64,000 bases of DNA from a virus, in the IMG/VR virus record IMGVR_UViG_3300032242_000818, positions 1 to 64,000 of that record, one strand, 5' to 3'. Below are positions 2,615-42,205 of this stretch, one piece after another. How positions within the stretch are numbered: position 1 is the first letter of the stretch; each line of letters begins with the position of its first letter. The translations under genes and the position numbers were made by a program. The notes below the pieces were generated by a model that ran no database searches, was not told where the DNA came from, and saw nothing but the letters and a program-made list of their open reading frames with translations.

Positions 2615-3340
2615 TTATGCCTCACCACCACCAGAACCAATTTGAGAAAGATATTCATCATGTTCTTTTAATACTTGTAAAAATCCCTCTTGAGTTCTAT
2701 GCAATGATGTAACAATTGCTAATCTATTATTATAATGCATGCCCATGTCAGGATTTGATGGCTCAACAAAATGTAAAAGGTATCCAGGGTGAATTAACAT
2801 TAACCCCTCTTCAACTTTAATCTTTTTAAATGCTGTAAATTGATTCATCCAATTTACACCACCACGTGGATCCATCATTACTAGGTTTCCTGGATTATTC
2901 TCATCAGTAGTAACGTATAACATTCCAACACCAATAGTATTGCCATGTTTATGGGGTGTAATTCTATAAATTCCATCACCCTCAGACATCCTAAAATATC
3001 CTTTTGATGCAGAAAATGGTGGCAGAGGCATTTCAGCTAATGGTCGATAATATCTTTCCATCAACTCTAATTTTTTTTCTTTAACTGCTACCATAGTTTT
3101 TGGCAGATCAGGCATTGACCAAAGATCCGTATGATTATATCTCCCAGGCGCACCTGGTTTTAAAAGATATTTAATATCATCTCTGAGTTCATCAATAAAA
3201 TCTTTAGAGAATGGATATGCTGTTATAATTGGTGTTGGCCATAACATATGGCATGTATCTTCTTTTCCAGGTTTAATGATAGTGATACTTCCATCAGCTT
3301 TCATTTTTTTAATATCTTGTAGATCTGTATAATCTTGCAT
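2615..3340 (-). CDS. Fe(II)/2OG oxygenase
   Basis: 241 aa. H130-K-H132 (TPHKHGN) and H190 (YLLHFVEPSNP) form the metal site, with R206 as the 2OG arginine. Spacing and the HxH form match the phage 2OG-FeII_Oxy_5/TIGR02466-like group. It sits between the PP-loop synthetase gene and the amidotransferase gene, so it probably acts in the same pathway (inference). Confidence 0.78.
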   Translation of the reverse strand: MQDYTDLQDIKKMKADGSITIIKPGKEDTCHMLWPTPIITAYPFSKDFIDELRDDIKYLLKPGAPGRYNHTDLWSMPDLPKTMVAVKEKKLELMERYYRPLAEMPLPPFSASKGYFRMSEGDGIYRITPHKHGNTIGVGMLYVTTDENNPGNLVMMDPRGGVNWMNQFTAFKKIKVEEGLMLIHPGYLLHFVEPSNPDMGMHYNNRLAIVTSLHRTQEGFLQVLKEHDEYLSQIGSGGGEA

Positions 3341-17844: not shown

Positions 17845-18453
17845 TTAGCCGATCCGCGATGATACCGTTTCAGCAACAACATTCAAAACGATTCTCTCTG
17901 CATTCTTACTAGGATTACACGACGCATGCCAAAGGTTACTAGGAAATAGAACGATATCTCCTTGTTTTGGAGTTATACGATTTACTATGGTATTGTTCTC
18001 AAAGAAAACGGTATTACCATCAGAGTCGTTTACGTAGTATATCATTGAGGTATCACCATTGTTCTCTGTGTCTTGGTGAGGAATGTTGTAGTTGTTTATG
18101 GTAAAATTTTCGTTCCGTAGTAGACGATTGAACTTACATCTCAACAGCGATTTGATTGGTCTATCATAAGCAGTTAGGATTAAAGGTTTAATGAAAAAGA
18201 ATAGATTAGTCTGCGGTACGTCTATAGAGAATTCTTGGCTGTAAATTGGTAGTTCTTCCTGTCCGTTATCTATGATATTAGGATCAGTGATGATGGGATC
18301 TTTTACGGTATAATCCATACGTATCCAGCGATCTTTGAAGAATTGTAGGTCTTGTTTGATTGTCTCCTGATATGCCTTTGATACTGAACCTTGGATTAGT
18401 TTGATTCTTGTATCGCTTTCTGTTGGATTATACTTCATTGTTTTCCATTTCAT
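17845..18453 (-). CDS. Fe(II)/2OG oxygenase
   Basis: 202 aa. H126-Q-D128 (IPHQDTE), H176 (LWHASCNP) and R187. The YYVNDSDGNTVFF strand pair is shared with the products at 23463 and 32481, so these form one subfamily. Substrate unknown. Confidence 0.83.
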   Translation of the reverse strand: MKWKTMKYNPTESDTRIKLIQGSVSKAYQETIKQDLQFFKDRWIRMDYTVKDPIITDPNIIDNGQEELPIYSQEFSIDVPQTNLFFFIKPLILTAYDRPIKSLLRCKFNRLLRNENFTINNYNIPHQDTENNGDTSMIYYVNDSDGNTVFFENNTIVNRITPKQGDIVLFPSNLWHASCNPSKNAERIVLNVVAETVSSRIG

Positions 18454-19989: not shown

Positions 19990-20886
19990 TTAAGCAGTCA
20001 ACATGTAAGTAGCGAGGTCTTTCCAATCTTTGTTGGAAGCACGAACCTTGGCAACAGCGATCAAAGTGCGCAAAGAGATTTCTTTCACGTCGTCTTTGAT
20101 AGCACGAATCAAGGCGAGAGCATCGGCTTTCACAGAAGAATCGTACTCAGGCAAGAACTCATCCAACTTGGAGATATGTTCCATGCGGTCAATCTTTTGG
20201 TTGGTAGTCATAGACAAGTCAATCATCATCGAGCGACTACGGATCGCTTGGTCGATTTTGTCTTGGTTCATGTTAGAAATAAAGATAACACGACCTTCGA
20301 AGTTGAATGACTTAGGCAGATCGTCATCACGCATATCTGCGTTCCAAGAGATGATACGCTTACCGTATGAATCAAGAGCACCTTTGAGGATGTTGAGGGC
20401 AACTGGATCTTTGAGGACGGCATCGCAGTCATCGAACACGATGATAGACTTATTGTTTTCGAACAGGGTACGATACAAACCTTTGGCAGTGCTATAACCT
20501 TTGACGAAAGTAAAGCATTTGCGAGTATTGATAACAGCACCGACTTGGAAGTCAGCGAGGTCAGAGATATCTTTGTAGCCATTGGCTTCCAAAGTCTTAG
20601 TAACAGTGTAAGTCTTACCGAGACCACCTTCACCAGTGATCACAGCGGATGGCTGAACACCAGAGGCAACCATGTTAACCAATTTCTCAACGAAACCGAA
20701 ACGAGTATTGATATCGAACTTCTCAGACTTTTCTTCGAAAGCCTTCTGGGCTTCAACGATAGTACCAGACATCTCAGCAAGGCGAGATTTAACAGCAGAT
20801 TCGTACTTAGATTTAACAACGACTTTACCGTCAACAGTACCGACGAATTTACCAGAAGCAGAGTCAAAGGAGATAAGAGTTTTCAT
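19990..20886 (-). CDS. AAA+ ATPase
   Basis: 298 aa from ATG 20886. Walker A GEGGLGKTYT, Walker B SIIVFDDCDAV, sensor 1 VIFISNMN and an arginine-finger candidate in QAIRSRSMM. The N-terminal 60 residues look like a separate domain. Single-ring remodelling ATPases of this type in phages act on DNA or protein complexes; the target here is unknown. A tandem promoter pair precedes it. Confidence 0.82.
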   Translation of the reverse strand: MKTLISFDSASGKFVGTVDGKVVVKSKYESAVKSRLAEMSGTIVEAQKAFEEKSEKFDINTRFGFVEKLVNMVASGVQPSAVITGEGGLGKTYTVTKTLEANGYKDISDLADFQVGAVINTRKCFTFVKGYSTAKGLYRTLFENNKSIIVFDDCDAVLKDPVALNILKGALDSYGKRIISWNADMRDDDLPKSFNFEGRVIFISNMNQDKIDQAIRSRSMMIDLSMTTNQKIDRMEHISKLDEFLPEYDSSVKADALALIRAIKDDVKEISLRTLIAVAKVRASNKDWKDLATYMLTA

Positions 20887-20905
20887 AGTTTCACTTTCAA
20901 TCAAT

Positions 20906-21010
20906 TTATACATATAGTTTACTGCAAATCTGAATTAAAGTAAAGGCATTTTTTGCATTCCCCTCAACTTTTGAGGGCTTTACCGAGTTCAGATCCTTTT
21001 CAACTTTCAT
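20906..21010 (-). CDS. Possible leaderless microprotein, 34 aa
   Basis: ATG 21010 lies 6 bases after the TATAAT at 21017-21022. MKVEKDLNSVKPSKVEGNAK to TAA 20906. The frame runs through the hairpin at 20961-20977 and the second promoter, so it may instead be a regulatory leader. Confidence 0.35.
   Translation of the reverse strand: MKVEKDLNSVKPSKVEGNAKNAFTLIQICSKLYV
20916..20944 (-). promoter_or_regulatory. Early promoter of the AAA+ gene (proximal)
   Basis: TTTACT (20939-20944), 17 bases, TAAACT (20916-20921). Weaker -10 than its tandem partner. Confidence 0.6.
20961..20977 (-). terminator. Hairpin between tandem promoters
   Basis: CCCTCAA/TTGAGGG stem with a 3-base loop between the promoters at 21017-21045 and 20916-20944. 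Could end or attenuate the distal transcript. Confidence 0.5.
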
Positions 21011-21154: not shown

Positions 21155-21364
21155 TTACGAATTCTGTTTCTGTATTCTCTCGAATTCTTCGTCCTCGGCT
21201 CTGGCATCATCAAGAACCTTTGGATCAGGTTTATCGTTTTTCCAAATCATTGCCTCATTTTCGCTGTCAAAGAATGGACTAACTACTTGGTTGTTTTCGT
21301 TCTTCCAAAAGTAGGTATACGTTTGCATCCCAGAATCACGGTATTTGATTAGAATTAAATTCAT
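21155..21364 (-). CDS. Hypothetical small protein
   Basis: 69 aa, MNLILIKYRDSGMQTYTYFW, then FDSENEAMIWKNDKPDPK. ATGA-type overlap with the oxygenase gene upstream. Last gene of the array operon; function unknown. Confidence 0.65.
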   Translation of the reverse strand: MNLILIKYRDSGMQTYTYFWKNENNQVVSPFFDSENEAMIWKNDKPDPKVLDDARAEDEEFERIQKQNS

Positions 21365-21924
21365 AATTTATTTAATTTATCCAGTGTTACAGAATCTGGC
21401 TGCTCAAAATGAAAATTCCAAGAAAGGATTGTTTTTCTTGTTTTTCCAACTATTGGTGCTTTGTGAACGATTTCAGATGGGAATATTAAAATATCACCTT
21501 CTTTAACATCAGCAAAAAATTTTTCTTTATGAAGAAATGGTGCAACCATTTCTGTTTTCGGTGTTCCTTCTGGTAGTTCAGTATAATATACACCAACCAT
21601 CTGTTGTCCATGGATATGCCAGTCATGATAATTACTCTCATGATATTGCTGAAACCAAAGATCTGTAATGGTTGGTTTTTCATAACCAATTGCATTTCCC
21701 ATTATAATCATGTAGTTTTGTAATATTGGTTTGACAAAATTAATCCATGGTCGATCAAACTCAGTGCTACTGTGCCAATCAACTTTTTTGATAGTAGGGT
21801 TTGTTCCATCAAATGGCTCAGCATCTATCATTGATAATAGTTTTTCTTTTACCATTTCATGTTCTACCATACTTGCGGTAGCATATGCGCAAGTAATTGG
21901 ATATAATTTAACATCTATGTTCAT
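21361..21924 (-). CDS. Fe(II)/2OG oxygenase (TIGR02466-like)
   Basis: 187 aa. H103-I-H105 (DWHIHGQQ), H154 (IFPSEIVHKAP) and R163 as the likely 2OG ligand. VGVYYTELPEG is the family strand. First (promoter-distal) member of an array of eight. Confidence 0.83.
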   Translation of the reverse strand: MNIDVKLYPITCAYATASMVEHEMVKEKLLSMIDAEPFDGTNPTIKKVDWHSSTEFDRPWINFVKPILQNYMIIMGNAIGYEKPTITDLWFQQYHESNYHDWHIHGQQMVGVYYTELPEGTPKTEMVAPFLHKEKFFADVKEGDILIFPSEIVHKAPIVGKTRKTILSWNFHFEQPDSVTLDKLNKL

Positions 21925-22592
21925 AATTCAATAAAGTGTTTATTAGTTTCTGGAAACATATTATATACTTCTTCTGTTATAATGTCAAACGCAATACTTA
22001 CACGTGGTTCTTCAGATTCATTAGCATCTGTCCAATGTTCAACCCATGATGGAAACAAATACATTTCTCCAGGTATATTAGTTATTTGAACTGATTGATT
22101 TTTGTTTAAATGATTTCTATAATAGGTAGATGTCCCATTTGCTCTAACACAAATATTACCAGAAACATAAGCATATTCAAATGGCGCTTTTATATGCCCA
22201 TCGCAGTGATGATGTGGTGTTATGTGTCTATTACCTTTTCTTATTACATTCGCCCAGCAGGTAATATAAACTTTTGTTGACTGAATATTGAGTGATTTAC
22301 AATATTCCAAATAACATTTACTAATATGTTTTTTTAAATCATTTAATACTGGATACTCATTTATAAATGAAAATAATGTGTATTCATATAATCTATTTGT
22401 TAACCAATCCGATGAGTCAGTCAATGGAAATGGTTTTGTTGTTTCCAAAATCTCTTTTTCTTTTTCGAGAACCAGATTATTTAATTTATCGATACCCTTA
22501 AAACCACCCTCAACAAAAAATGATTTATATACTGGTATAATAAATGCTGGTAAAAATGGAGATTTACTCTCAAATTGAAAGTAGTCAAGCAT
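21921..22592 (-). CDS. Fe(II)/2OG oxygenase (TIGR02466-like)
   Basis: 223 aa. TPHHHCDGH (H127/H129), H186 (LFPSWVEHWTD) and R197 (PRVSIAFDI). The longer N-terminus is helical. Overlaps its neighbours by 4 bases at one end and 1 base at the other. Confidence 0.83.
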   Translation of the reverse strand: MLDYFQFESKSPFLPAFIIPVYKSFFVEGGFKGIDKLNNLVLEKEKEILETTKPFPLTDSSDWLTNRLYEYTLFSFINEYPVLNDLKKHISKCYLEYCKSLNIQSTKVYITCWANVIRKGNRHITPHHHCDGHIKAPFEYAYVSGNICVRANGTSTYYRNHLNKNQSVQITNIPGEMYLFPSWVEHWTDANESEEPRVSIAFDIITEEVYNMFPETNKHFIEL

Positions 22593-22792
22593 TATCTGCC
22601 TCTTCCTGCCGATCTTTTCATAGGTTTATTGGCTATGTTATTTACTGCTTGTTTAACAAGTTTACCAGCTTCTTTTTTGCTTAGTCCCTTTGCTACCATA
22701 CCTTTTTTTGTTTTCTTCTTTGCTTTCTTAAGAAATTTCTCTGCGTGGTATTTTTGCGCAAATTCTGATTCTTGTTTAATTTCTTCAGTCAT
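22592..22792 (-). CDS. Lys-rich small protein
   Basis: 66 aa, strongly basic (KFLKKAKKKTKKGMVAKGLS, C-terminal KRSAGRGR). TAATG overlap with the next oxygenase. DNA or RNA binding is likely from charge alone. Confidence 0.65.
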   Translation of the reverse strand: MTEEIKQESEFAQKYHAEKFLKKAKKKTKKGMVAKGLSKKEAGKLVKQAVNNIANKPMKRSAGRGR

Positions 22793-22803
22793 TTTATTTT
22801 CCT

Positions 22804-23466
22804 TTATTTTAAAGATACAAAAAAGTATTGATTTAATCTTTTTGGCATCTTCTCAGTCATCTTTGCGCCATGCAAAGAACCACCACGCCACGACACCATC
22901 CTATTATACACGTTTTTAACTTCGCAAGTCAACTCAAAATTATCATGATATTCTTTATGTATATTTTCATATTCTTGCAGGGTTATTTTACCTGCTTGAT
23001 AGTTTTCTTTTGGAAGAGTATAATCATTAATTGTTCTATCAATCAACTCTTGCCTACTCCAGTTTCTATCTTTCTTTAAAGTTCCAATTTGCACTCCAGT
23101 TTCTGGATCAGGATCTGGTGTCATAAAAATTTGACCACATACAATCAACTTGTATTCTTCAACAAGCATCCTACATGCATCAGGATTTTTGCCATCGATG
23201 TGCATCCAACCATAGTTAAAAATATCTATTGGATTATATGTATGTTCCATAAAGAAAGTAGTCATCCAAACATCATTTGGATTTATACCATGGATTTGAT
23301 AGATAGTATCGCAAAATCCATTATAGATTTGTGGAGATATCTCTTGGAGACTTACGCTTCGATTGCCAACACCACAACCAAAAATTGGAAATTCTCCATT
23401 TAGAATTTTAGTTATGTCTTCTGGATTATTATAAAAATTATCCAGTACTTTTAAGTCAGTTATCAT
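22804..23466 (-). CDS. 2OG oxygenase-like protein (DUF6445-like)
   Basis: 220 aa. GWMHIDG supplies H89 and D91, SLHGAKM supplies H199, and R210 follows. CGQIFMTPDPDPETG and NRMVSWRGG are the blocks I associate with the DUF6445-like branch. A TTGACT-18-TATAAT string inside the gene (near 22903-22932) may be chance. Confidence 0.72.
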   Translation of the reverse strand: MITDLKVLDNFYNNPEDITKILNGEFPIFGCGVGNRSVSLQEISPQIYNGFCDTIYQIHGINPNDVWMTTFFMEHTYNPIDIFNYGWMHIDGKNPDACRMLVEEYKLIVCGQIFMTPDPDPETGVQIGTLKKDRNWSRQELIDRTINDYTLPKENYQAGKITLQEYENIHKEYHDNFELTCEVKNVYNRMVSWRGGSLHGAKMTEKMPKRLNQYFFVSLK

Positions 23467-24047
23467 ACGAAATTATAATTAATTATACATCTAACATCAT
23501 TAGTTGGTTTACCGCTTGAATGATATATGCTTCCATCAAAAACTGCTATCCTACCTTTTTTATATGGAATAACTTGATCAATATCAATCAACTTATTTTT
23601 TACATCATCTGGAGATGTATCGTTAGTTGTTTGTTTATATAAGATAGTATCACCATCACTATCATTCACATAATAAATTGCAACCAAAAATGGAAATGGT
23701 CTAACACCATCTATATGAGGCACAGACATTGGGTTTTTTAATGCAAGAGATAATTGTATCCTAGATGTAAGTAATGATGTAATTTTAGAATTTATTTTCT
23801 CTGCAGCAGCGTGCAATGGTTTTGTATATAAATCTAAATCTTCCACAGAAAATTTGTCATCTATTCTATATAAAGATTTTGTAAAACTAGAAACTTTTTT
23901 TTGTACTTCTTTTGTAACCTCTGGATGTGAGTGATAAAATACTGTTCGACCAAAAGTCCATTGTGTTTCTGGACTGAAAATAGTTTGCTCAATTTTGTTT
24001 TGAGTTTCTATATCTACCACATCATCTATAATAATAACATTATGCAT
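23463..24047 (-). CDS. Fe(II)/2OG oxygenase
   Basis: 194 aa. H111-I-D113 (VPHIDGVRP), H176 (IYHSSGKP) and R186. The YYVNDSDGDTILY strand pair groups it with the 17845 and 32481 products. Confidence 0.83.
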   Translation of the reverse strand: MHNVIIIDDVVDIETQNKIEQTIFSPETQWTFGRTVFYHSHPEVTKEVQKKVSSFTKSLYRIDDKFSVEDLDLYTKPLHAAAEKINSKITSLLTSRIQLSLALKNPMSVPHIDGVRPFPFLVAIYYVNDSDGDTILYKQTTNDTSPDDVKNKLIDIDQVIPYKKGRIAVFDGSIYHSSGKPTNDVRCIINYNFV

Positions 24048-24588
24048 AATTTGTCTCGAACGCTATTGAAATTCTTTCAGTATTACTTTGGTTTGATTTA
24101 ACGTAATGTGTAAGCCATGAGGGAAATATAATTAATGATCCAGGTATTGGAGGTAAAGATAATTCACTAGTATTAAACTCAGTTCTCTTGGTAATGTATT
24201 CTTTGTTAATAACATAATCAAGTGTATTTATTGGTGTAATAAATGTTATACTACCTGAATCTTCTGCACCCTTAACATAGTAAACAGCAGAGAATACTGA
24301 TTTGATATGAGCATGAGGTTGAATTATAGCAGCATTATTATTTAAATTTGCCCATGCTCTTACTACAATTTGTGTTTCTTTTAATCCAATCTCTTTAGAT
24401 ATTTTATTGGATAAATCAGTAACTGTTTTGACAATTGGCTGTAGTTCATTTAAATCTAGATAGTTACTCTGTTTTTCTTTACCACTATTACTAATCTGTT
24501 GTTTACAATATACTTCTAATGAATAGTTGTCAAAGTTTAAATTATTTTCAATAGCAACAAACGAACAGAATATTGGGTGTATATTCAT
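24040..24588 (-). CDS. Fe(II)/2OG oxygenase (TIGR02466-like)
   Basis: 182 aa from ATG 24588; a TTG four codons earlier is less likely. H92-A-H94 (QPHAHIKS), H161 (FPSWLTHYV) and R172 (ERISIAFE). Overlaps the next gene by 8 bases. Confidence 0.83.
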   Translation of the reverse strand: MNIHPIFCSFVAIENNLNFDNYSLEVYCKQQISNSGKEKQSNYLDLNELQPIVKTVTDLSNKISKEIGLKETQIVVRAWANLNNNAAIIQPHAHIKSVFSAVYYVKGAEDSGSITFITPINTLDYVINKEYITKRTEFNTSELSLPPIPGSLIIFPSWLTHYVKSNQSNTERISIAFETNYA

Positions 24589-25199
24589 ATTGGTATCCAA
24601 TGATTAAGATTTTTATAATTACCAGATTCAATTAATTTAATAGCTGGAACAATATCAAAAGCAATAGTAATTCTTGGACGAGTTTCATCATGCCATTCTG
24701 AAGACCTATGAAGATCTTCACCACTTTTGCTTAAAACAATTAGATTATCTTCACTCTTAACTTCTAATTGTAAATTATTTACTCTATATGTAGTGCTTGA
24801 ATTTGGTTCAACATCCAAACAATAAAACCCATGCCATGAGTCAAAGTCTTTTGTCCCATGGGTATGCCAATCAATAAATTGTCCTTTGTTGTAGAAATTC
24901 AACCAACATTGAATGTAATAATCTTGATATGGTTCAGTACCATATTTACTTTGATTGCATGAGTGGAAAGTTTCTTTAATTACATTGTAGAGTTTATGTA
25001 ATCCAGGAATTGGGTATAAAAGAAGATTATACTTGTTGTATAAAAACTCTCTCACGGTTTTTTGCCCATCAAAATCAGAATTGTCTTCTTGGAAATTATC
25101 TTTGATAAACTTATACATAAAATGAGATGTGGATCTCAACTCTTTCAAGTCAAGATCCACTTTTCTAGTATAGATAAAATCCGAATGTAAACTAATCAT
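24585..25199 (-). CDS. Fe(II)/2OG oxygenase (TIGR02466-like)
   Basis: 204 aa. DWHTHGTKD (H112/H114), H164 and R176 (RPRITIAFDI). ATG 25199 overlaps the preceding stop by 4 bases. Confidence 0.82.
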   Translation of the reverse strand: MISLHSDFIYTRKVDLDLKELRSTSHFMYKFIKDNFQEDNSDFDGQKTVREFLYNKYNLLLYPIPGLHKLYNVIKETFHSCNQSKYGTEPYQDYYIQCWLNFYNKGQFIDWHTHGTKDFDSWHGFYCLDVEPNSSTTYRVNNLQLEVKSEDNLIVLSKSGEDLHRSSEWHDETRPRITIAFDIVPAIKLIESGNYKNLNHWIPI

Positions 25200-25795
25200 A
25201 ACAACAAATTACCTGCAATTGATATTCTATAATTATCGCTTGTATAAAAAGGATTAACGCAATGATTTAATTCAGAAGGAAACATAATCATTTTACCGTC
25301 ATAAGATTTATCTGTATATATTGTATGTGATTGAATACCACCAAGAACAGTATTATAATAAAACTGAAATGTCGATGCTAATGGAGCACCAGAATTTTTA
25401 ACAGAATCTCTATTCATTTCATCATTTAAATCAAATGGTATAGTTTTCCATATCACAAAACTTATATCATCTGAATGGTGATGTAATGGATTAAATTCGT
25501 ATTTACTTTGAAAATTTACCCAGAGTGATGGCATTTTAAATTTGTGTTCTTTATCACAAATAAAAAATTTATTGTTGAATACTACAAATTCTCTTGCAAT
25601 TTCTTGAACAAAATCAAAAACAACTTTTTGACATTCAATCAATTCATACTGATGTTTCAAATTACCAGCAAGAAATTTATTATAACTCTTTCCAGTAATA
25701 TTATTAATTTCTGCATCAATTGTTTGTAAAACTATTTCAGGAACATCAACAATTAAGTATCCAGGATTATCAAATTTTATGTATTCTATATTCAT
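25196..25795 (-). CDS. Fe(II)/2OG oxygenase (TIGR02466-like)
   Basis: 199 aa from ATG 25795; longer readings run into the tRNA-Gly gene and are rejected. NPLHHHSDD (H105/H107), H178 (FPSELNHCVNP) and R190 (YRISIAGN). First gene after the tRNA. Confidence 0.82.
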   Translation of the reverse strand: MNIEYIKFDNPGYLIVDVPEIVLQTIDAEINNITGKSYNKFLAGNLKHQYELIECQKVVFDFVQEIAREFVVFNNKFFICDKEHKFKMPSLWVNFQSKYEFNPLHHHSDDISFVIWKTIPFDLNDEMNRDSVKNSGAPLASTFQFYYNTVLGGIQSHTIYTDKSYDGKMIMFPSELNHCVNPFYTSDNYRISIAGNLLL

Positions 25796-25811
25796 TATAG
25801 TATTTAGTCGC

Positions 25812-25886
25812 TGGAGCAGGATATCGGATTCGAACCGATGACATTTTCGTTGGCAACGAAACATTCTACCACTGAATTAATCCTGC
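25812..25886 (-). tRNA. tRNA-Gly(GCC)
   Basis: 75 nt, acceptor GCAGGAT/ATCCTGC, anticodon loop TTGCCAA, encoded CCA. It stands alone between two oxygenase genes, 1.2 kb from the main cluster. Confidence 0.95.
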
Positions 25887-25889
25887 GTA

Positions 25890-26531
25890 TTATTTTTTAC
25901 TCAAGCCCAATGCTGGTCTTTTATCATATTTCCATTCTGTATATTTACCTTCAGCATCAACATAATGAAGAAAAATTTGAAGAACTTCTTTGTCTTCTTG
26001 TAATTCTTCTCGCCAGTGCATTACTTGGTTACCATCATAAACTACCATATCTCCAGATTCCAACTCACATGGCGTTCCATCCATAAAAATAGCCCATGGA
26101 GTGTTACTATTATACACACATAAACTAGCAGACCATTCAGCACTATGTCGATCAAAATGTTTTGGCAGAGTAGAACCTTTTGAGTATATCCGTGCATAAC
26201 TAAAGCCTTCAAATAATTTAGTTTGAACTACGGATTCTACAATTGGTTTAAGATTAACAAGAATTGCTTCATTAACTGGAGCAGCATATGCAGCAAAAGA
26301 AACTGGTGAATCATAGTCACCAAAAACAGTTTTATCTTCTGTTGATTTACCAGCAAGCATATATGTAACATCCCTCTGCATATAAAATGCAGTTCTTGCT
26401 AATTCGCAAGCATCTTTACTCAACACATTTTTAATTACTTTAAATTTACCAAAAAATGGTTTAGATTTTCTATCCTCATCAGAGTCGATCATTATTAAAT
26501 CAGGATTATCTGGATCTAGTTGGGTAAACAT
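25890..26531 (-). CDS. Fe(II)/2OG oxygenase
   Basis: 213 aa. H125-F-D127 (LPKHFDRHS) and H172 (QVMHWREEL); the arginine is not obvious after the distal His, so K181 may serve. IFMDGTPCELESGDMVVYDG is the family core. AAGGAA precedes ATG 26531. Confidence 0.8.
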   Translation of the reverse strand: MFTQLDPDNPDLIMIDSDEDRKSKPFFGKFKVIKNVLSKDACELARTAFYMQRDVTYMLAGKSTEDKTVFGDYDSPVSFAAYAAPVNEAILVNLKPIVESVVQTKLFEGFSYARIYSKGSTLPKHFDRHSAEWSASLCVYNSNTPWAIFMDGTPCELESGDMVVYDGNQVMHWREELQEDKEVLQIFLHYVDAEGKYTEWKYDKRPALGLSKK

Positions 26532-26559: not shown

Positions 26560-27033
26560 TTATGCTGCCATATATGATTTATATCTATCAGCAGCATATG
26601 ATGCAGCGAATGCTTTTGGCTTTACCATTGGTACTACATTACACATACCTTTGATATAACCAACTGCTTCATTTATAACGCATGAAGATCCATGCATTTC
26701 ATTTGGGTTAATATCCAGATGAACTTCCACTTCACGATCTTCCAATACATCATGTAATTTTAAATACAATTCCGCAATCTTATAAACTTCATTCATTAGA
26801 CGCATACGTGGCTTGTCTCGTTTCTGATCCCAGTCACGTTCACGAACTACTTCACCAAAAATTTTACAGCCATTGTTTCCATTGATATGAACAACAACAA
26901 CCATAATGTAATCTGCGTACCAATCTTTTCCTATTAGAAATCGTTCAGAGTCACCACCGATATAAACTTTGGTTTCTGGTGTCTGTGCCATGATGAATTC
27001 TCTAACTTCATCAATGTTGATCGCTTTACGCAT
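26560..27033 (-). CDS. RNase H-like protein, YkuK/DUF458 family
   Basis: 157 aa. VYIGGDSER at the first strand, EVVRERDWDQ, the acidic EVHLDINPNE and C-terminal VKPKAFAASYAADRYKS match the YkuK family. Predicted nuclease fold; in vivo role unknown. AGAGG precedes ATG 27033. It lies just downstream of the tRNA cluster. Confidence 0.8.
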   Translation of the reverse strand: MRKAINIDEVREFIMAQTPETKVYIGGDSERFLIGKDWYADYIMVVVVHINGNNGCKIFGEVVRERDWDQKRDKPRMRLMNEVYKIAELYLKLHDVLEDREVEVHLDINPNEMHGSSCVINEAVGYIKGMCNVVPMVKPKAFAASYAADRYKSYMAA

Positions 27034-41513: not shown

Positions 41514-41825
41514 TCATACGCTGAAAGAACTGCCGCAGCCGCAAGTAGATTTTGCATTAGGATTACTAATGACAAATTGTGAACCTTTTAGTTTATCTCT
41601 AATAAAATCAATAGTAGCATTATCAAAGTAGGTCATGCTAAGAGCATCAACTACGAGGTTATCAATGACAAAATCATCTTCTTCCTTTTCTTCTTCAATA
41701 GTAAATCCGTAATTGAAACCAGAACATCCCCCACCAGATATAAATGCTCTTACGTATTTTCCATTTGGTTCATCCATAAGGATTTCATCAAGTTGTTTTT
41801 TTGCAGATTCTGTTATTGTAATCAT
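41514..41825 (-). CDS. iscA: A-type Fe-S carrier protein IscA/ErpA
   Basis: 103 aa from ATG 41825. GGGCSGFNYGF and C-terminal STCGCGSSF supply the three conserved cysteines. Delivers Fe-S clusters to apoproteins. 4-base overlap with iscU. Confidence 0.92.
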   Translation of the reverse strand: MITITESAKKQLDEILMDEPNGKYVRAFISGGGCSGFNYGFTIEEEKEEDDFVIDNLVVDALSMTYFDNATIDFIRDKLKGSQFVISNPNAKSTCGCGSSFSV

Positions 41826-42205
41826 GAGCATGCACACTTTAATTGGTAGTCGTGTATCGCTGCCTTAATCGCATCTTCCGCAAGTATAGAGCAGTGAATC
41901 TTAACTGGCGGGAGGGCAAGTTCGTTAGCAATCTCGCTATTTTTAATGTTTCCTGCTTGGTCAAGTGTTTTCCCTTTGACCCATTCAGTAACAAGTGAAC
42001 TCGATGCAATAGCCGAGCCACAACCATACGTTTTGAATTTAGCATCTGTGATAATTCCTTCTTCTACTTTAATTTGAAGTTTCATCACATCACCGCACGC
42101 TGGTGCGCCAACCATTCCAGTACCAACTGATGGATCATCTTTATCTAGAGATCCCACATTGCGTGGATTCTCATAGTGGTCAATAACTTTATCTGAGTAT
42201 GCCAT
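41822..42205 (-). CDS. iscU: Fe-S cluster scaffold IscU
   Basis: 127 aa, full length. Cluster ligands APACGDV, YGCGSAIASSSL and IHCSIL are intact, and LPPVK, the recognition site for the HscA chaperone, is kept, so it should work with host IscS/HscA. No iscS gene is present. Confidence 0.94.
   Translation of the reverse strand: MAYSDKVIDHYENPRNVGSLDKDDPSVGTGMVGAPACGDVMKLQIKVEEGIITDAKFKTYGCGSAIASSSLVTEWVKGKTLDQAGNIKNSEIANELALPPVKIHCSILAEDAIKAAIHDYQLKCACS

Follow-up and report, generated by a model that had tools for sequence, protein, structure and literature searches.

A tandem array of eight predicted Fe(II)/2-oxoglutarate oxygenases at a variable, anchor-bounded locus of a freshwater T4-like phage

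The IMG/VR virus record IMGVR_UViG_3300032242_000818 (164,717 bases) carries a T4-type portal gene and belongs to a freshwater T4-like phage lineage. We analyzed its first 64,000 nucleotides (hereafter the window) as one stretch and parts of the rest of the record as separate stretches. On the minus strand of the window, in the interval from a tRNA cluster to an AAA-ATPase gene, eight genes for predicted Fe(II)/2-oxoglutarate (2OG) oxygenases (ox1 to ox8) and one lysine-rich gene (LYS) follow one another head to tail at positions 21361–26531. In the direction of transcription, the order is MARK, ox8, tRNA-Gly, ox7, ox6, ox5, ox4, ox3, LYS, ox2, ox1, SML, and AAA (Table 1). The original prediction, made from the sequence of the window alone, had placed eight different oxygenases and a Lys-rich gene here, and this was confirmed, with open reading frames at these positions and family evidence plus a metal triad for every oxygenase. 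It had also described overlaps of 1–16 bases interrupted only by a tRNA-Gly. The overlaps and the tRNA are indeed there, but the genes are packed with overlaps of 1–8 nucleotides (nt), and an 11-nt gap between LYS and ox3 breaks the array in addition to the tRNA; the overlap of 16 nt shrinks to 4 nt because ox5 likely starts at the ATG at 24588, where it overlaps ox6. Similarly, ox7 probably starts at the ATG at 25795, its listed start running over the tRNA. The same tRNA-Gly(gcc), which lies inside the array here, belongs in two related loci (L012 and L021; 97–99% identical) to a tRNA cluster located upstream of MARK, and this difference in placement is a trace of rearrangement.

Table 1. Genes and other features in and around the oxygenase array (window positions)
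Feature	Description	Position	Strand	Evidence
MARK	conserved RNase H-like gene (PF04308) that anchors the variable block on its left	26560..27033	-	Pfam 2.9e-17; 339 IMG/VR stretches match
ox8	HxD-type oxygenase, prolyl 4-hydroxylase (P4H)-like fold, phrog_2954 (labelled 'ferrochelatase')	25890..26531	-	AlphaFold2 model, predicted local distance difference test (pLDDT) 87.7; Foldseek
tRNA-Gly(gcc)	tRNA inside the array	25812..25886	-	
ox7	HxH-type oxygenase	25196..25795	-	PF13759
ox6	HxH-type oxygenase	24585..25199	-	phrog_81 (2e-11); no Pfam hit
ox5	HxH-type oxygenase	24040..24588	-	TIGR02466/PF13759; matches PDB 2rg4 and 3bvc
ox4	HxD-type oxygenase	23463..24047	-	phrog_274 (labelled 'DNA endonuclease V'; 2e-29)
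ox3	HxD-type oxygenase, HygX/PHD2-like fold	22804..23466	-	DUF6445-like (weak match); phrog_1644 ('minor coat protein')
LYS	66-aa Lys-rich non-oxygenase gene, conserved internal anchor	22592..22792	-	homologues in 56 loci
ox2	HxH-type oxygenase	21921..22592	-	PF13759; comes after LYS in 7 non-redundant loci
ox1	HxH-type oxygenase	21361..21924	-	PF13759
SML	conserved 69-aa gene, right anchor	21155..21364	-	homologues in relatives
AAA	conserved AAA-ATPase gene, right anchor	19990..20913	-	PF00004
extra oxygenase	HxD-type, just past the right anchor	17845..18453	-	phrog_274/81
w2615	oxygenase 18 kb from the array here; homologues mostly within the array in relatives	2615..3340	-	

All eight array members were assigned to the Fe(II)/2OG oxygenase superfamily by profile or predicted fold together with the metal triad. 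The Pfam cut-off of PF13759 is passed by ox1, ox2, ox5, and ox7, and the curated cut-off of TIGR02466 (62.5 bits) is exceeded by ox5 (84 bits) and missed by ox1, ox2, and ox7 (24.4, 36.8, and 22.0 bits, respectively); the other four match PHROG families (Table 1). The triad (H-x-D or H-x-H plus a distal His) is intact in 8 of 8 members, as HxD in ox8, HxH in ox7, ox6, and ox5, HxD in ox4 and ox3, and, on the far side of LYS, HxH in ox2 and ox1, so that the alternation of the two types that had been proposed is not borne out. Seven members (ox1 to ox7) have an Arg 9–12 residues past the distal His, the position of the ligand of the 2OG C5-carboxylate, and ox8 has a Gln in the candidate 2OG-binding strand and a non-invariant Lys at +9. 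The triad residues of ox8 (H125, D127, and H172) are invariant across 40 homologues, which only an alignment query recovered, a single-sequence scan for its relatives having returned none.

Folds were predicted for the two least certain members, ox3 and ox8, the other six being assigned by profile. The best PDB matches of the ox3 model (pLDDT 91.3) are 2OG oxygenases, as are all of the best Foldseek matches of the ox8 model, and together they include a Pseudomonas putida prolyl hydroxylase, a chlorella-virus collagen hydroxylase, HygX, and PHD2; the folds nearest to ox8 are the EF-Tu-acting prolyl hydroxylase and the viral collagen prolyl hydroxylase. The two uncharacterised TIGR02466/PF13759 structures matched by ox5 share its HxH...H...R pattern, although, unlike ox5, these two proteins are not known from phage arrays. 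For ox6, no relative was found when a bacterial source was sought in the genome collection, and tblastn gave no match in the isolate collection. In three relatives of ox3 (L014:11815-12420, L083:9036-9650, and L024:12520-13167), the distal metal-binding His is replaced by Tyr or Asn, and these proteins are possibly inactive or altered in their chemistry.

The oxygenases are clustered far beyond chance. The window holds 16 among its 95 genes, and when these were shuffled, a run of eight or more arose in 5e-6 of trials and a run of six or more in 7e-4; three more at 70–76 kb of the record bring the total to at least 19. The array also coincides with a trough in guanine-plus-cytosine (GC) content (28–34%, with flanks at 38–45%), its oxygenase genes having about 30% GC compared to 37% in other genes (p 4e-6), and oxygenase GC is below that of other genes in 20 of 22 related loci. 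A head-to-tail series of one superfamily could in principle arise from a single oxygenase that was recently copied in place, with some copies degenerating. Yet the array members match each other weakly and over short stretches at most, each having nearer homologues in other phages than among its neighbors in the array, and no triad has decayed. The members are thus not each other's closest relatives, which contradicts tandem duplication and leaves it a negligible probability.

Comparison with relatives showed that the content of the locus varies between conserved flanks. Related loci were gathered with MARK as bait (n = 80), and AAA as bait added 78; after removal of duplicates, 23 complete MARK-to-AAA intervals remained, the window included. 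These hold between zero and eight oxygenases each (11 of the 23 without any, the rest with one to eight), and the run of eight in the window is the longest uninterrupted one among them. The counts are conservative, as some PF13640-type members slipped past the profiles (e.g., in L013), and a profile derived from ox7, which drifted onto LYS, was excluded from them. LYS itself lies outside the variable set as a conserved anchor that is kept in relatives both with and without oxygenases, and the two sub-slots around it vary independently (6+2 oxygenases here; 7+0, 4+4, and 2+3 elsewhere). Clustering at 40% identity across 122 non-redundant loci yielded 69 oxygenase orthogroups, 38 of them singletons. 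The original prediction had held that a variable number of oxygenases among related phages would support a diversifying cassette and a fixed syntenic set would speak against it; number and content vary while the flanks are conserved, which favors reading the locus as a diversifying cassette that stays at one site, and the suggestion of a hypervariable reservoir was thereby supported.

The closest relative, L175, illustrates this exchange. Its AAA protein is 100% identical to that of the window and its flanking DNA is mostly 91–95% identical over several kilobases, yet its array reads ox4, ox3, a homologue of w2615, another oxygenase, LYS, ox2, a member of a different orthogroup, and SML, where the window has ox4, ox3, LYS, ox2, ox1, and SML. 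That is, two oxygenases are added between ox3 and LYS, and ox1 is swapped for another orthogroup. Even the shared genes differ in age from their surroundings: the synonymous divergence (dS) of ox3 between the two phages is 1.45, near saturation and five times the 0.28 of AAA in the same pair, with a ratio of nonsynonymous to synonymous divergence (dN/dS) of 0.048. Similarly, ox6 and its counterpart in L176 have a dS of 1.40 against 0.37 and a dN/dS of 0.056. The array genes are therefore old relative to the backbone, and the two testable members, ox3 and ox6, are under purifying selection; high dS together with low dN/dS means that these genes were replaced by diverged versions and yet conserved as proteins.

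The slots of relatives also hold cargo of other kinds. Besides methyltransferases and further genes, it includes a NodU-type O-carbamoyltransferase (PF16861, 1e-59), which adjoins the oxygenase orthogroup OX28 in five non-redundant loci, and an amidinotransferase-like protein, which matches arginine:glycine amidinotransferase in the PDB (4e-11). A three-gene unit of DUF6875-like, ATE/GNAT-like, and amidinotransferase-like genes recurs in this slot (L013:8124-10146 and L014:12417-14427). The carbamoyltransferase and amidinotransferase-like genes, together with the tight overlaps, which fit co-translation, and an ox4-ox3 pair whose order is kept in six of the seven loci holding both as well as in the cultured cyanophages Syn9 and S-CREM1, would suit a single pathway in which the eight oxygenases act successively on one substrate, e.g., a natural product or peptide. 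However, recurrence is limited to sub-pairs (e.g., LYS-ox2 in seven loci and OX25-w2615 in eight), and no set beyond a few members recurs. Moreover, the slot of this phage showed no core biosynthetic gene, and a search of its genome for a carbamoyltransferase found none. Because no gene set is conserved, one long pathway is disfavored and we regard it as improbable; the proposal that the whole set acts in series, also part of the original prediction, was not supported.

Instead, the locus is very likely an exchangeable cargo block between conserved anchors. In this process, AT-rich genes, each encoding a small Fe(II)-dependent oxygenase, would be inserted, lost, and replaced as whole units in a slot bounded by MARK, LYS, and SML/AAA, and recombination at these anchors, with the flanks and LYS as central homology, may swap genes or pairs between co-infecting phages. 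Each gene would then represent an independently acquired enzyme retained by selection, presumably co-transcribed with its neighbors, with most acting alone or in short pairs. As judged from motifs and folds, the enzymes may be active as hydroxylases or in other oxidations with Fe(II) and, mostly, 2OG.

Equivalent arrays are found in cultured marine T4-like phages, i.e., Syn9 (gp45-gp54, 10 genes), S-CREM1 (ORF72-80, 9 genes), Pelagibacter phage Mosig (55-60, 6 genes), S-RIM44 (gp157-162, 5–6 genes), and S-SCSM1 (ORF240-243). Most of their members were confirmed by profile plus triad, and some (e.g., S-RIM44 gp158 and gp161, Syn9 gp46, and S-CREM1 ORF73) by an HxD/HxH motif or annotation only. 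As in the window, these arrays consist of overlapping head-to-tail genes of the TIGR02466-like, phrog_274, DUF6445-like, and phrog_2954 families, and in Syn9 and S-CREM1 an ox4-type gene precedes an ox3-type gene. They differ in protein identity (at most about 40% to the window), in habitat (marine, compared to the freshwater lineage here), and in genomic site, the cultured arrays following tail-fiber and halogenase genes and the array of the window being flanked by tRNAs and the RNase H-like and AAA genes. The oxygenases of cyanophages and pelagiphages likewise come in many divergent copies per genome; the passages on these genes in four papers (PMC9602691, PMC9964418, PMC9599517, and PMC3037559) give 24 copies for S-SCSM1 and 10 for S-CREM1, and there they count genes and describe no exchangeable tandem locus. 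Oxygenase multiplicity and tandem arrays are thus already present in deposited genomes, and what is new here is that exchange at a fixed site was measured, together with the composition and divergence signals and the corrected labels.

These are the labels 'DNA endonuclease V', 'ferrochelatase', and 'minor coat protein', under which array members of cultured phages often appear. Searching ox8 against Pfam up to an E-value of 1 gave no match, hence no ferrochelatase domain, and with structure matches to prolyl hydroxylases and other 2OG oxygenases, we rejected its assignment as a ferrochelatase. Similarly, ox4 was rejected as a counterpart of the pyrimidine-dimer glycosylase DenV of T4, since it has an oxygenase triad and the glycosylase family is absent. 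The 'denV' protein of S-SSM7 (L258:3459-4013) also passes the PF13640 cut-off with the glycosylase family absent, and S-CREM1 has a separate pyrimidine dimer glycosylase gene. By profile, triad, or fold, PHROG 274, 2954, and 1644 most likely denote oxygenases. The 'ferrochelatase' label for phrog_2954 appears in an ecological analysis (PMC11561400), and PMC9599517 reports a pelagiphage 'ferrochelatase' beside oxygenases, with the oxygenase genes nearby but not adjacent.

The context of the marine arrays and the accompanying carbamoyl-, amidino-, and methyltransferases suggest that the cargo may serve to tailor macromolecules or surface molecules. The targets would be molecules of the phage virion or the host surface, namely side chains of proteins or glycans, and a changed set of oxygenases would change the exposed chemical phenotype. 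One concrete form of this idea is that the oxygenases, with a halogenase and a carbamoyltransferase encoded elsewhere, hydroxylate tail-fiber or other virion proteins and so vary receptor binding. In Syn9, S-RIM44, Mosig, S-SSM7, and S-CREM1, arrays or oxygenase clusters come just after tail-fiber or fiber-like genes, usually with a tryptophan halogenase; tail-fiber-assembly genes also adjoin oxygenase arrays in cultured T4-like phages, and neck genes come after the arrays or clusters in S-RIM44, Mosig, and S-SSM7. The enzymes nearest in fold to ox8 are a prolyl hydroxylase that acts on EF-Tu and a viral collagen prolyl hydroxylase, although similarity of fold does not identify the substrate, and virion genes fill so much of such genomes that adjacency is weak evidence. 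No open-access paper was found that describes an action of tandem phage 2OG oxygenases on tail fibers. Modification of virion proteins in particular is conceivable here and somewhat unlikely.

Overall, we consider this combined explanation probable, with exchange of oxygenases at a cargo slot as its strong part and the tailoring of virion or host-surface molecules as a tentative part that is by itself less likely than not. Several observations weigh against this explanation. The array is not near identified tail-fiber genes in this lineage, and the tryptophan halogenase of this phage (PF04820, 4e-98; record 88609-90099, L265:6609-8099), directly beside a clamp-loader-like gene, sits among replication genes rather than tail-fiber genes as in cyanophages; because of this different placement, the link to the virion does not carry over by position. 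No glycosyltransferase lies within the array, and no collagen repeat protein was detected in this genome with PF01391. Beyond L175, the flanks also turn over strongly (often one to four of eight neighbors are shared in a gene-sharing control), so that at that distance the array does not clearly exceed other accessory regions in variability, and the claim that it turns over faster than all neighboring regions was dropped, as the control showed this for L175 only.

The oxygenases might alternatively oxidize modified pyrimidines of the phage DNA together with a TET/JBP-type dioxygenase (PF12851, 1e-24), which is encoded at record 70678-71991 (L253:6678-7991), overlapping a PF13759 oxygenase and near replication genes. 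This gene suggests that DNA base oxidation is possible in this phage family, and the slots of relatives hold a NodU-type carbamoyltransferase, an enzyme class that in phages can act on 5-hydroxymethylcytosine (PMC8670742). However, the TET/JBP gene lies outside the array of the window and co-occurrence with it was not seen: TET/JBP is above cut-off in 10 of 16 related records, including one without a phrog_81 oxygenase (G006), and is missing from some, being found irrespective of the array, to which nothing ties it. The array itself has no DNA-modification gene and is made of P4H and PF13759 types rather than TET, and we therefore hold base hypermodification to be a poor candidate. An aspartyl/asparaginyl hydroxylase-like gene (PF05118) at record 75010-75558 (L253:11010-11558) adjoins a gene that looks like a DNA polymerase.

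Finally, the combined use of 2OG by many oxygenases could shift the nitrogen and energy metabolism of the host, with the identity of the substrates being secondary, as proposed for cyanophages by Sullivan et al. (PMC3037559). The variable number and seemingly exchangeable identity of the array members would fit this. However, single members are under strong purifying selection and the families are highly diverse, both of which speak for distinct substrates. In addition, uncoupled turnover makes a poor sink for 2OG. The host of this phage is also probably not a cyanobacterium, though the indication is weak. Iron-sulfur assembly genes for IscU and an IscA-like protein, together with a gene for a Bug/TctC-like periplasmic protein, lie at 41514-42205 and 1028-1993 (the IscA-like and Bug/TctC-like ones were recognized by eye), and the best matches of IscU (81–86% identical) are spread across beta- and gammaproteobacteria, the first hits being Comamonadaceae, which is a weak hint at a proteobacterial host. 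We thus consider a purely metabolic role to have little probability.

These oxygenase families are a common and poorly understood cargo of aquatic phages, and the locus described here shows whole genes of this kind being exchanged at one fixed position and kept by selection. It offers natural comparisons of relatives with and without oxygenases, and the equivalent arrays in the cultured phages Syn9 and S-CREM1 make the question of their substrates directly accessible. Functions in heme metabolism or repair that were deduced from 'ferrochelatase' labels (PMC11561400 and PMC9599517) or from 'denV' labels (cyanophage records) need rechecking. A more speculative view, which we rate as rather unlikely, is that exchangeable oxygenases together with carbamoyl-, amidino-, and methyltransferases and halogenases provide a combinatorial chemistry that diversifies one class of exposed molecules, i.e., tail fibers or the surface of the infected cell. 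If so, recombination at such loci would swap chemical modifications instead of amino-acid sequences.

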